Assembly: GCA_036268875.1 (NCBI GenBank) | Contig: DATATI010000059.1 | Location: 1 to 35,618 of the forward strand | Reading direction: 5' to 3' | DNA from: Polyangia bacterium | Lineage (GTDB): Bacteria > Myxococcota_A > Polyangia > Fen-1088 | Length of the DNA: 35,618 nt | Position numbers and translations under genes: made by a program | The notes under the pieces: generated by a model | The model's database searches: none | What the model saw: the letters and a program-made list of their open reading frames with translations, nothing else | Told to the model about the DNA's origin: nothing | Shown here: in pieces, positions 3,217-12,709 of the stretch | Numbering within the stretch: position 1 is the first letter of the stretch | How the letters are laid out: the number at the start of each line of letters is the position of its first letter

Positions 3217-3289
3217 GGGCCCATAGCTCAGCGGTCAGAGCTGGCGGCTCATAACCGCCTGGTCCCTGGTTCGAATCCAGGTGGGCCCA
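3217..3289 (+). tRNA. tRNA with CAU anticodon, probably tRNA-Ile2 (lysidine type)
   Basis: A complete 73-nt cloverleaf. The acceptor stem GGGCCCA pairs with TGGGCCC (3282-3288), with discriminator A3289. The D stem is GCTC/GAGC, the anticodon stem GGCGG/CCGCC with loop CTCATAA (CAT at 3250-3252), and the T arm CCTGG-TTCGAAT-CCAGG. CCA is not encoded. It is not an initiator, because position 1:72 is a G:C pair and the three-G:C run of the initiator anticodon stem is absent. A CAU anticodon can be elongator Met or Ile2, in which TilS converts C34 to lysidine. The C4:G69 and C5:G68 pairs and the CTCATAA loop resemble Ile2, so that is preferred but not proven. Confidence 0.93.
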
Positions 3290-4179: not shown

Positions 4180-4577
4180 CTTCTCGCCGAAGTCGGACAG
4201 GTGATCGCGGCGGCGTCGTGAGACGTCGTCGAGGAAAGTCCGGGCTCCGTAGGGCAGGGTGCTGGCTAACGGCCAGTCGGGGTGACCTGAAGGACAGTGC
4301 AACAGAGAACAGACCGCCGGTCCCGCAAGGGATACGGCAAGGGTGAAACGGCGCGGTAAGAGCGCACCGCCCCTCCGGTGACGGAGGGGGCACGGCAAAC
4401 CCCACCTGGAGCAAGACCGGTACGGGATCGCGAGGGCAACCTCGCCGGCGTGGCCCGCGTCGATTCGATCTCGAGTTGGTCGCACGAGCCGTCCGGCAAC
4501 GGCCGGCCCAGAGGAATGATCACCACCGGCGGCAACGCCGGGACAGAACCCGGCTTACGGCCGGCTCCGGCGAGAAG
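4180..4577 (+). ncRNA. rnpB: RNase P RNA, bacterial class A
   Basis: The catalytic RNA of RNase P, which removes tRNA 5' leaders. Universally conserved blocks occur in order: GAGGAAAGTCCGGGCTCC (4231-4248), ACAGAGAACAGACCGCC (4302-4318), GGTAAGAGCGCACCG near 4354, AGAGGAATGATCACC (4510-4524) and GACAGAACCCGGCTTAC (4542-4558). The ends are set by the P1 helix: CTTCTCGCCG (4180-4189) pairs perfectly with CGGCGAGAAG (4568-4577). Five T residues follow at 4578-4582. The length of about 398 nt is normal for class A. A -10 box sits just upstream. Confidence 0.97.
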
Positions 4578-9194: not shown

Positions 9195-11528
9195 CTATTT
9201 GATCTCGATGGTGCCCAGGCGAACGCGATCGCCGCCGTCGTTCGGGCCCTTGGTGACCTTCAGGCGCTTGCCTTCACCGCCCGGCCAGAAGCCCATGAAA
9301 ATGGTGTATGTGCCCGCCGGGGTGGTCATCAGCGGCACGTCGACGTCGAAGTGGTCGCGTACGTATTCGCCCGGCAGCCAGTAATTGGTGGGGAAGGCGT
9401 GATTCAGCGGATCGTGATCGCCGAGAACGCGCGGCGCCGCCGGCCCGTCGAAGTGAACAAAGATCTTGTAACTGCCCGGCGGGTGGCCCTTCACCCGGAA
9501 GGTCAGCTCCAGCCCGATCTTTCCCGGCCGCCGCATCGACGGCGGGAAATCGGCGCCGATCAAATCGATGGCGTCCCCGAAGGTGGCGAACACCGGTACG
9601 CGCCAGCTCCAGGGGGGCTTCTCGTCGGGCTGCCAGGTGTTGGTGCCGGGCGGCGGCGGGTTGGGCGACATCCAGACGTTGGTGCGCAGCGGGTTCTGGT
9701 CGGCCTCGCCGGGCGAAAGGCGATTCGACAGCAGCAGGAAGCGCGTCGATTCCGCGTCGACCACCGCGTAGTCGATCTTCGCCGTCTTGAGCGCATTGTC
9801 CAGGGCCGCCAGATCATCCGCCGACACCAGGGCAAAAACGCGGTTGCGGTCGCGCAGGAAATCCACCAGGCGATCCTGCGACGGGATCTCCACCATCTTC
9901 TCGTGACCGTAGAACCCGGCGCCGTGGCCTTCGATGTGATACTTGCCGATCTTCTCGCCCGCCTTGGCGTACTTGGCGTAGGACTCGAGCACCGGCTTGA
10001 ACGAAAAGTGCGTCGAAAGGTGCGGCACCAACACGTCGGCCACGAAGAAAGAGAACACCAGCGCGAAGCCGATGGCCGCTTGCAAGCCCCAGCGCCCGGC
10101 GGCCAGGATCACCGGCTCGAGCTTGCGTTGCCAGTTGCGGCCGTTGGTCAGATCGCGCGGGGGCACCCGACCGACGGCGCGCCCGCGGGCCGCCAGGCCC
10201 GTGTACACGCCCATCGCCATCAGGAACCCCATGCCCAGGATCAGGTGTTCGATCGAGATGACCGCCGGCCACTTCACCTTGTCCAGAAGGTGCACCGACA
10301 CCAATTCTTCCGGCTCGATGAAGAAATCGCGCGCCACCACCATGGTCCCGGTGGCCATCAGCAGACCGGCCACCGGTTCCAGCCGGTTTCCCTCCAGGAC
10401 CTCGTCGAGGAAAACACCCACCGCCAGGCCCAGGGCCGGCAGCGCGACGTAGCGGCCGTCGCCCAGCACCAGCACCAGGTACGTCGACAGCGCGAACCCC
10501 AGGCCAGCGACGAAAAGAATGTACAGCTGACCGAACGCCAGCCGCGTGTTGGTCTGCACGCCCTCCGATTCGTCGAGCCGAATCAGCGGACGGGCCAGGG
10601 CGAACACCACCACCGCGCTCCAGGGAAACAGGCCGAAGCCGAGCTGGCGCACCAGATACTCAAAGTTGTGCGACGGCACGCCGCCCTGGGCGACGCCGCC
10701 CAGCAGCGGCGAAAATTTCCCCGCCACGATGTTGGTCATGGCCGCCACCATCAGCGCGATGCTGAGGACGCCGAGGACGATCAGCGGAATGGCCGCGCGG
10801 CTCTTGGGGCGCAACGTGCTTTCGCCCAGGCGGCTGCCGGCGGGAATGTCGGGGCCGGTGCCGGGGGCGGCCAGATCGCCGGTGCCGTCGTCGACCTTGG
10901 CATCAGAGGCGATCAAGCCATAGCCGACGATCAGCGCCGCCAGCAGCGACAGCCCCGGCAGCACCACACCCAGCAGCGCGCCGGTGGCCAGATACCCGAT
11001 GCCCATGCCGGCGCAGGCGATCAAAAGATCGGCGATCCGCCGTTTGCCCGACGCCGGCCAGGCGTATCGCGCGAGACCACCGATGGCCAACGCCAGGCCG
11101 GCCATCTCCGGCGCGTCTGAGGTGAGCTGCCGCGCCTCCAGCGTGAAGATGGTCATGGTGCCCAGCGCCAACACCGAAAGGACGGCGGCGCGTCGGCGGA
11201 ACATTCCGGCCGCCGCCCAGTACACCGCCAGCAGGCAGCCGAGCGCGCACAAGGTGTTGAAGATGCGTGCGCCGAACTCGCCGGCGCCGAAGATCTTGAT
11301 CCCCAGGGCGGCCAGGAAAAACATCAGACCCTTGCCGCCCGGATAGCGGCCGCCCACCGTCGCGTCGAACAGGTGGCCGCTGTCGGCGATCTCGCGCGCC
11401 TGGTCGGCGATCTTCAGCTCCCAGGGATCCCAAAAGCCGAATGACCCCAGCCGCGGCAGGCAGAGCGCGACCGCAAAAAGCACCACCCAGCCCCACGGGG
11501 GGACTTTCCGAAGTCGTTCTGTGAGCAC
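9195..11528 (-). CDS. GT39-like (PMT/ArnT-type) membrane glycosyltransferase
   Basis: A 777-residue polytopic membrane protein. After the first helix, an acidic loop reads FGFWDPWE (Asp34, Glu37), the place where GT39/GT83 enzymes carry the catalytic or metal-binding acid. About ten or more hydrophobic helices follow to roughly residue 490. A periplasmic C-terminal part of about 270 residues is rich in beta-type sequence and ends LGTIEIK. The family transfers sugar from polyprenyl phosphate to lipid or protein; donor and acceptor here are unknown. The start is GTG 11528, with only a weak ribosome-binding site. A 190-bp palindrome lies just upstream. Confidence 0.85.
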   Translation of the reverse strand: MLTERLRKVPPWGWVVLFAVALCLPRLGSFGFWDPWELKIADQAREIADSGHLFDATVGGRYPGGKGLMFFLAALGIKIFGAGEFGARIFNTLCALGCLLAVYWAAAGMFRRRAAVLSVLALGTMTIFTLEARQLTSDAPEMAGLALAIGGLARYAWPASGKRRIADLLIACAGMGIGYLATGALLGVVLPGLSLLAALIVGYGLIASDAKVDDGTGDLAAPGTGPDIPAGSRLGESTLRPKSRAAIPLIVLGVLSIALMVAAMTNIVAGKFSPLLGGVAQGGVPSHNFEYLVRQLGFGLFPWSAVVVFALARPLIRLDESEGVQTNTRLAFGQLYILFVAGLGFALSTYLVLVLGDGRYVALPALGLAVGVFLDEVLEGNRLEPVAGLLMATGTMVVARDFFIEPEELVSVHLLDKVKWPAVISIEHLILGMGFLMAMGVYTGLAARGRAVGRVPPRDLTNGRNWQRKLEPVILAAGRWGLQAAIGFALVFSFFVADVLVPHLSTHFSFKPVLESYAKYAKAGEKIGKYHIEGHGAGFYGHEKMVEIPSQDRLVDFLRDRNRVFALVSADDLAALDNALKTAKIDYAVVDAESTRFLLLSNRLSPGEADQNPLRTNVWMSPNPPPPGTNTWQPDEKPPWSWRVPVFATFGDAIDLIGADFPPSMRRPGKIGLELTFRVKGHPPGSYKIFVHFDGPAAPRVLGDHDPLNHAFPTNYWLPGEYVRDHFDVDVPLMTTPAGTYTIFMGFWPGGEGKRLKVTKGPNDGGDRVRLGTIEIK

Positions 11529-11584
11529 GGTAAGGTGCTTACTTAATCCGGCCGGGCGGCCAGACGCAATCCCAAGGTGCTCCC

Positions 11585-11774
11585 GTTACGCGCGGGGCGA
11601 AGGCCCGGCAACCCGATTGGGGGCGGCTTTCGCGCGTTTGCGCTCCTCTGACGAGGAGCGCTCTTTAACGGATCCCGAAAGGGCGAATGGATCCCAAAAA
11701 GGGCGCTCCGCCAGGAGCGCAAACGCGCGAAAGCGGCCCTCCAATCGGTTGTCCACCTTCGCCCCGCGCGTAAC
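11585..11774. repeat. 190-bp imperfect palindrome (large inverted repeat)
   Basis: The outer ends are perfect 19-bp inverted copies: GTTACGCGCGGGGCGAAGG (11585-11603) and its reverse complement (11756-11774). Inside, 11626-11647 is the exact reverse complement of 11713-11734 (22 bp). The arms are about 70-77 bp with a loop of about 40 bp. Each arm also ends in its own small hairpin (11640-11661 and 11703-11720). The loop holds a direct repeat, GGATCCC at 11670 and 11689, each followed by an A-containing tract and GGGCG. It fills most of the gap between the lipoprotein stop (11801) and the GT39-like start (11528). It could be a MITE-like element, a terminator or a structured RNA. Confidence 0.85.
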
Positions 11775-11800
11775 GTACTCGCCTACGAAGATGTGACCGA

Positions 11801-12709
11801 TCAATCAGTGGCGGCGTCGTCGCCAGCGTCGGTGGCGGCGCTGCCGCCGGTGCCGCCGGCGTCGGTTGTTGCGCCGCCGGTTCCGGATGCGCCGCCGGTG
11901 CCGGCCGCGCCGCCGGTGCCGCCCGCCGGGCCGTTGCCGCCGAACGCCGCGCAAGCCGCCGCGCCGCCACCGAACGACAGGCCCTGGTCGCACTTGTTGC
12001 CGATGTACGGATCGCAGTACGGCACCGCCATGGCGCAGTCATCGTCCGACGTGCAGGCCGCCCCGGCGGTGACCCGGGCCGCGCACGTGCCGGCCAGGCA
12101 GCGCAGTGACTCCAGGCAGGGGTTGGTGTCGTCGTCGCAAGCCTCGCCGGCCATGTGCTTGGCGACGCATCTATAGACAACGCCCATCATCGTGCAATAC
12201 GAACCGGCGTTGCAAACCTCGCCCGGGTTGCCACACAGATCGTTCAGGTTCTTGACCACCTTCTTCGCGCACAGGGTCTTGTCGCAGATCAAGGTGCCGG
12301 TGCAGTCGTATTTGACCGTGCAGGGGGCGGATTCCTGGACGTCGCCCTGGAAGACGTATTCGCAGGCGGTGTTCATCGCGTCGATCTGCGTGGGGGTGAT
12401 GGTGCCGCTGGTGCTGTATACGCCGTTCACCTGGTTGATGCAGGCGCTGATGTTGGCCGGACGAAACACGCGCGGCGCGACCTGGCGCTGGGTGACCAGG
12501 TCCGCGCAAACCGCCTTTCGCGCGATCAGGCAGGCGTTCATGTCCGAGATGGCGCACTTGTTCACCACCTGACATTCCTTGGCCGCGACCTGGGCGCAAA
12601 AGTCGGTCGGGGTGACGGCCGAACTGCCGCCCTGGCACCCGCCGATCGTCGCCGTCATCGTCGCCAAGGCCGTCACCAAGAGAACACCCGAGCAAAGCCA
12701 ATTACGCAT
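11801..12709 (-). CDS. Cys-rich lipoprotein with Gly/Thr/Ala-rich tail
   Basis: A 302-residue predicted lipoprotein. The signal peptide ends at a lipobox, IGGC, with Cys25 as lipid anchor. A Cys-rich body (about 20 Cys) contains repeats of the type CxxxxxC-DDDxxPCLxxLxC, seen in many secreted proteins of myxobacteria. The last 60 or so residues are a low-complexity Gly-Thr-Ala-Asp tail (GGTGG, GASGTGG, GGSAATDAGDD). The start at ATG 12709 is well supported by GGAGGAA about 7 nt upstream (12716-12722, minus strand). Role unknown; likely outer-membrane or surface exposed and disulphide bonded. Confidence 0.88.
   Translation of the reverse strand: MRNWLCSGVLLVTALATMTATIGGCQGGSSAVTPTDFCAQVAAKECQVVNKCAISDMNACLIARKAVCADLVTQRQVAPRVFRPANISACINQVNGVYSTSGTITPTQIDAMNTACEYVFQGDVQESAPCTVKYDCTGTLICDKTLCAKKVVKNLNDLCGNPGEVCNAGSYCTMMGVVYRCVAKHMAGEACDDDTNPCLESLRCLAGTCAARVTAGAACTSDDDCAMAVPYCDPYIGNKCDQGLSFGGGAAACAAFGGNGPAGGTGGAAGTGGASGTGGATTDAGGTGGSAATDAGDDAATD

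Follow-up and report, generated by a model that had tools for sequence, protein, structure and literature searches.

A dispersed family of inverted, folded half-sites in a Polyangia bacterium, probably a non-autonomous mobile palindrome

How small palindromic repeats move without a RAYT (Y1 tyrosine transposase) is, to our knowledge, an open question. The EFAR repeats of Enterococcus faecalis, about 170 bp long, are made of independent stem-loops and insert into target stem-loops. REPs, with a size of 20-40 bp, are reported in PMC3733652 to lie at the 3' ends of genes and to supply stop codons from their own ends, and REPINs are described in PMC3116915 as doublets with compensatory stem changes. 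The YPAL (RU-2) element of Yersinia, of about 168 bp, is not A+T-rich, is known from empty and filled sites and generates target duplications of 3-26 bp (PMC2229807). MITEs such as ERIC, RUP and Correia/NEMIS are short, apparently non-coding, dispersed and folded (PMC10969869 and PMC2229807), and SPRITE repeats, by second-hand description in PMC10969869, are dispersed and carry terminator-like hairpins.

The element analysed here, of about 230 bp, has in common with REPINs and REP/BIME repeats, as PMC3116915 and PMC3733652 present them, two inverted structured half-sites, compensated stems, a less conserved spacer, a location at 3' ends and in convergent gaps, and the possible supply of stop codons. 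It differs from them in having no RAYT in its genome and no consistent GTAG/CGTC tag, in its two-helix half-sites of about 110 nt, and in its roughly 25 copies. With YPAL, compared by description, it shares small size, a composition that is not A+T-rich and empty and filled sites; with MITEs, the short, apparently non-coding, dispersed and folded character; with SPRITE repeats, dispersal and terminator-like hairpins. In contrast to YPAL, no target duplication was recognised and, in contrast to MITEs, there is neither a recognised target duplication nor a parent insertion sequence, the ends are ragged and the element is G+C-rich. It shares independent stem-loops with EFAR but shows no sign of stem-loop targeting in nine copies. 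A literature search in one open library gave, among the matches listed, no comparable palindrome family in myxobacteria.

Structure of the element and its half-sites

The window is a stretch of 35,618 nt from a Polyangia bacterium (contig DATATI010000059.1 of assembly GCA_036268875.1; genome G000 below, 6.15 Mb in 95 contigs, 96.8% complete). A first-pass annotation had described a palindrome with nested hairpins at 11,585-11,774, and its account of the structure holds on checking the sequence. The 19-bp ends (11585-11603 and 11756-11774) are perfect inverted copies, the match actually covering 20 bp (11584-11603 with 11756-11775); the 22-bp inner block GCTTTCGCGCGTTTGCGCTCCT is perfectly inverted (from 11626, inverted from 11713); each arm carries a small hairpin (11640-11661 on the plus strand, 11720-11703 on the minus strand); the loop contains a direct repeat (GGATCCCGAAAGGGCG and GGATCCCAAAAAGGGCG, within 11670-11705); and the whole lies in a 272-bp intergenic gap (11529-11800) between two minus-strand genes. 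Folded as single-stranded DNA, 211 nt reach -94.7 kcal/mol, against a shuffle mean of -47.63 (sd 3.51; z -13.41) and with none of 200 shuffles as good, a stability far past chance. Comparison with other copies places the element at about 11567-11798, beyond the ends first given. The features are listed below; P1 and P2 are the two helices of a half-site, and R3 is the two-helix model used in the searches.

11567-11798, no strand: whole element, its left end truncated and its right end GTGACC, both ends judged against other copies
11571-11687, plus strand: left half-site, long-loop type (R3 match, E 1.5e-23; this half-site was among the sequences that built R3)
11677-11788, minus strand: right half-site, short-loop type, inverted (R3 match, E 6.2e-23; likewise among the sequences that built R3)
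11590-11596, plus strand: left distal block GCGCGGG, containing the proposed 5' strand of P1
11592-11596 with 11629-11633, plus strand: left proposed P1, 5' strand and partner, 2 of 5 pairs being G-U in the window copy
11763-11769, minus strand: right distal block, 5' strand of the proposed P1, with its partner at 11731-11727
11640-11661, plus strand: left hairpin P2, GCGCTCCTC-TGAC-GAGGAGCGC, then TCTTTAAC, a weak T-run
11703-11720, minus strand: right hairpin P2, GCGCTCC-TGGC-GGAGCGC, then CCTTTTTGGG; terminator-like
11670-11705, plus strand: loop with the GGATCCC direct repeat, seen in the sequence
11801-12709, minus strand: lipoprotein-like gene upstream of the element, an ORF with no Pfam match
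9195-11528, minus strand: PMT_2 family glycosyltransferase gene downstream of the element (Pfam PF13231, E 8e-11)

The GGATCCC centre is doubled in the window copy and single in the other copies displayed. By eye, the TGA stop of the lipoprotein-like gene (11803-11801) falls inside the outermost stretch common to other copies. At the Rfam gathering score the element is unmatched, and the window yields only a class A RNase P RNA and a tRNA gene (4189-4572 and 3217-3289, plus strand).

Between genera, conservation lies in an inverted pair of half-sites and not in the long palindrome. Across genera each half-site runs in the order GCGCG(G/A), about 40 unconserved nt, a proximal block ending in TTGCG, and hairpin P2. 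In an open look at 15 half-sites of relatives, the best distal block preceded TTGCG by 48-51 nt in 11 and by a longer distance in two (G001 C20 and G007 b), which have another block at the usual place; the two halves of G001 C180 gave no GCGCG(G/A) block. A script returned spacings of 40-43 nt in 13 relative half-sites and 40-44 nt in G000, figures that by themselves are no proof of spacing because it permitted 35-45 nt only; two of its matches (window 17532 and L067 911) were ignored as accidental.

Hairpin P2 covaries between genera. Among 14 relative half-sites, three of the seven pairs carry double changes (6 cells), the covariation score was reached by none of 500 shuffles, and one pair is C-A in 5 of the 14 rows. 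The G000 alignment, which holds 28 of 35 half-sites and excludes, among others, hairpins with deletions, has one double-change cell and a score reached by 33 of 500 shuffles; it is 96.4% paired, with one compensated, three one-sided and seven unpaired among 194 cells. With so few non-paired cells, decay of copies within G000 is no more than suggested.

Covariation of P1 is suggested as well. When both helices were scored together on 19 half-sites (13 from relatives, 6 from G000), 14 double-change cells were counted and none of 500 shuffles did as well, these counts not being probabilities according to the tool's own warning. RNAalifold, run on 19 half-sites with no structure supplied, predicted exactly ten pairs, five making up P1 and the other five the inner part of P2. 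Double changes occur in 6 of the 10, and covariation contributes little to the energy (-0.79 of -12.29 kcal/mol). Taken alone in the 13 relatives, the first variable pair of P1 is paired in 13 (shuffle P 0.015) and the second in 12 (shuffle P 1.0); in G000 both are mostly G-U. X-type halves do not lengthen P1, the next position being paired in 7 of 13. The core itself varies: in two elements of G007 one hairpin of more than 20 bp takes the place of the two small ones, with a basal stem that differs between the two copies on both strands, and a half-site of G008 has a stem that likewise exceeds 20 bp.

Selection on pairing of the whole arm was considered and rejected (permutation P 0.77, 0.13 and 0.31 for the far-outer, outer and middle parts in 8 copies); within the core, arms from one copy resemble each other slightly more than expected by chance (0.77 vs 0.75, permutation P 0.019). 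The suggestion of a structured RNA therefore survives for the hairpins within the halves, which covary between genera, but not for the outer and middle palindrome, where there is no sign of pairing selection.

Dispersal, position and orthologous sites

The element is dispersed through G000. BLAST gave 58 matches, with full-length copies 75-83% identical to the window copy, and merging the strands by hand left about 25 copies and remnants in all, so that the locus is one of many rather than a single copy. The 25 places comprise 14 with two halves, 7 with one half, three with an outer arm only (C55, C39 and C1:165685) and one core remnant (C53); the first two groups provide the 35 half-sites, and some copies end at contig ends. 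Two-half copies with readable hairpins combine one long-loop and one short-loop half. Outer arms fall into rough types found on either side of the core, and the long palindrome in the window would arise because both halves of that copy are of the same type. Relative to the arm types, long- and short-loop core halves apparently face either way, which may mean that the core flip-flops; since several of the arm types were assigned only marginally, inversion of the core is no more than suggested.

Some observations concern individual places. A second dispersed hairpin, GGAAGGGGC..GCCCCTCCCGC-like, adjoins some copies and elsewhere stands alone (L065 2934-2968; L066 about 2940-2970; L092; L095; L100). 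A phosphomannose-isomerase-like gene apparently takes its final codons and its stop from a truncated copy (L078 1678-3006), and a gene that looks terC-like by eye (L076 2600-3100) seems broken and terminates at another truncated copy. At L084 1-200 an outer arm halts, by eye, at an apparent insertion sequence end near the contig end.

Copies show a preference for gene 3' ends. Neighbours were taken from a codon-usage gene caller at 24 of the 25 places. Both were called for 20 copies, of which 11 lie in convergent, 9 in tandem and none in divergent gaps; the remaining four places examined have a single called neighbour whose 3' end faces the element, and the 25th (C53) is likewise convergent. 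The background, 20 hand-chosen stretches of 20 kb (400 kb), contains 44 convergent, 209 tandem and 45 divergent junctions, which gives the convergent excess and divergent deficit P values of 8.5e-4 and 8.1e-4 by intergenic bases and of 3.3e-5 and 0.038 by junction count. This background replaced an earlier junction test, biased in that its background was the copies' own neighbours. Within tandem spacers the copy is closer to the upstream stop in 8 of 9 (one-sided P 0.02). In relatives, 11 elements have both neighbours, two of them by short or weak gene calls: convergent gaps hold 6, tandem gaps 4 and a divergent gap 1, which is a half copy. Two more elements have one neighbour, and C148 was excluded. 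The flanking genes look unrelated between copies, and the position at gene ends would suit an element that is tolerated there or that helps mildly by ending transcripts.

Further copies were sought with successive models of the half-site. Of the 18 family genomes, R1 matched 4, R2 matched 5 and R3, at E <= 0.1, matched 9; under stricter filters, R1 picked out its 4 again, and no others, among 240 class genomes. R3 matches in G002, G005, G012 and G015 (E 0.009-0.071) and one in G008 (E 0.039) were taken as chance, their DNA unread, and G007 C148 (E 0.003) was dropped as lying within a gene; the equally weak C39, C55 and G007 C48 were retained, as each is backed by BLAST or by a stronger half that faces it. 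Divergent relatives of the element are thus found in four other family genomes (G001, G003, G007 and G008), which with G000 make three genera. R3 half-site matches number 37 in G000 and 9, 7, 5 and 2 in the four relatives, one of the 7 being intragenic and one of the 2 weak, with none or weak ones in the other 13 genomes. BLAST of the 211-bp element against 59 genomes gave matches at E <= 1 in 56, among which G000 and G001 alone had any below 1e-3; the remaining matches were short and taken as chance. An exact half-site pattern hit two stretches in a genome collection, both in one uncultured Myxococcales assembly. Plasmid and phage collections held no match to the element at E 1e-5, and viral contigs none to the half-site pattern; two viral matches to the outer block, mutually identical over the displayed stretch and with no inverted repeats nearby, were put down to chance. 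Judged by eye, CTCGGGGAGCGACGCCGAT-like units, each about 20 bp long, are repeated in tandem beside one copy in G003 (L107 about 1600-1720).

In order to compare orthologous sites, we measured spacers from the stop of the first gene to the residue aligned with the start of the called second gene. The mreB-mreC spacer is 290 bp in G000, with the element inside and about 85 bp of other sequence, and 30-107 bp in 12 relatives; in G014 no element is seen in the displayed spacer, though the match starts late, and in G008 the mreB match is split and the matches lie about 53 bp apart. The element is absent between mreB and mreC in all 14 readable relatives, which belong to other genera, this set leaving out G015 (contig end) and G010 and G013 (no match). 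The fliQ-fliR spacer is 336 bp in G000, consisting of the element plus other sequence, and -5 to +1 in G002, G006, G010, G013, G014, G016 and G017. Among 10 relatives with a close fliR the element is thus absent in 7, the three undecided being G008 (337 bp with Ns, no element visible), G003 (contig begins at fliR) and G005 (unreadable); distant paralogues were uncounted. One further copy lies between same-strand genes for a transporter permease and a binding protein (Pfam), and the same-strand neighbours of another form what we take to be a DUF4266-type operon. The element is absent at two orthologous sites in other genera, and the filled and empty sites point to insertion.

The suggestion of a MITE holds in part: copies are dispersed and empty sites exist in other genera, but no target duplication was recognised by eye in the displayed flanks, the element ends are ragged and no autonomous partner was found. 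The partner search, with one outer-arm pattern representing one arm type only, allowed up to 3 mismatches in 18 genomes and returned 14 sites, all known G000 copies. Insertion into target stem-loops was rejected: over the 9 copies evaluated out of 10 (one was skipped), the mean duplex energy is -22.7 when a copy's own flanks are paired and -21.4 when the flanks come from different copies.

Origin and spread of the element

Taken together, we consider the element to be most probably a non-autonomous mobile palindrome of a new family, REPIN- or MITE-like and probably copied via a folded single strand. The unit that spreads would be two half-sites facing each other, each with a distal block pairing with a proximal block (P1), the hairpin P2, a short T-containing tract and the GGATCC centre. 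A transposase encoded elsewhere may recognise the folded half-sites, and copies would persist where they do little harm, after stop codons, where the inward hairpins and T-runs of G000 may end transcripts from either side. Helices that are compensated between genera, and copies next to unrelated genes, are what one would expect if the element needed the structure in order to spread. Besides the lack of a recognised target duplication, of fixed ends, of an autonomous partner to the one arm pattern and of a Y1 transposase in G000, it weighs against this explanation that strong terminators inside mreB-mreC and fliQ-fliR would be costly.

A host-useful cassette, a bidirectional transcription terminator spread or kept for insulating convergent genes, appears improbable to us. 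It would account for a hairpin followed by a T-run that faces inward on both strands, and for the 11 of 20 copies between convergent genes. In G000, at least 4 T occur in the 8 bases after the hairpin in 26 of 28 half-sites and at least 5 T in 14 of 28 (12 of 14 short-loop and 2 of 14 long-loop halves), and outward-facing tails never reach 4 T. However, 4 T are found in 9 and at least 5 T in just 2 of the 14 relative half-sites, a terminator scan of 11450-11900 gave 1 site against 0.7 expected, and the mreB-mreC and fliQ-fliR spacers each contain a copy. The G+C hairpin followed by a T-run is good in the short-loop half, and weak in the long-loop half and in relatives. Judged from sequence, it is plausible that the inward hairpins could end transcripts in G000, as the 'large transcription stop' of the first-pass annotation would have it, and the T-run does not appear to be the conserved feature.

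Still less probable is a REPIN in the strict sense, moved by a RAYT. The inverted doublet of structured repeats with compensatory changes and a less conserved spacer (PMC3116915), the sites by gene 3' ends with stop-supplying ends (PMC3733652) and GTAG at some G000 element ends, by eye, all agree with it. Nevertheless, PF01797 has no match at E <= 0.001 in G000 (96.8% complete) and, among the four element-bearing relatives, is found in G003 only, as a partial match; the GTAG/CGTC tag was not seen by eye at the displayed ends in relatives, and half-sites of about 110 nt exceed the 20-40 bp given for REPs in PMC3733652. Since no RAYT was found in G000 the element is not classed as a REPIN, even if it may work like one. 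Finally, a structured RNA kept at fixed genes and not mobile would explain the covarying helices but is hardly credible given flanking genes that look unrelated from copy to copy, absence of the element at two orthologous sites in relatives and no Rfam match.

Returning to the non-autonomous mobile palindrome, we tentatively raise, as a rather unlikely extension, that it could stand for a new class of replicating palindromes, with paired two-helix half-sites, a transposase other than RAYT, compensated helices and free intervening sequence. In this family a recurring anatomy comes together with stems compensated from one genus to another and with conserved gene pairs at which both occupied and empty sites are seen, and an element has settled between genes of an operon such as mreB and mreC. 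Through the family, the question of which enzyme reads a folded half-site becomes testable.
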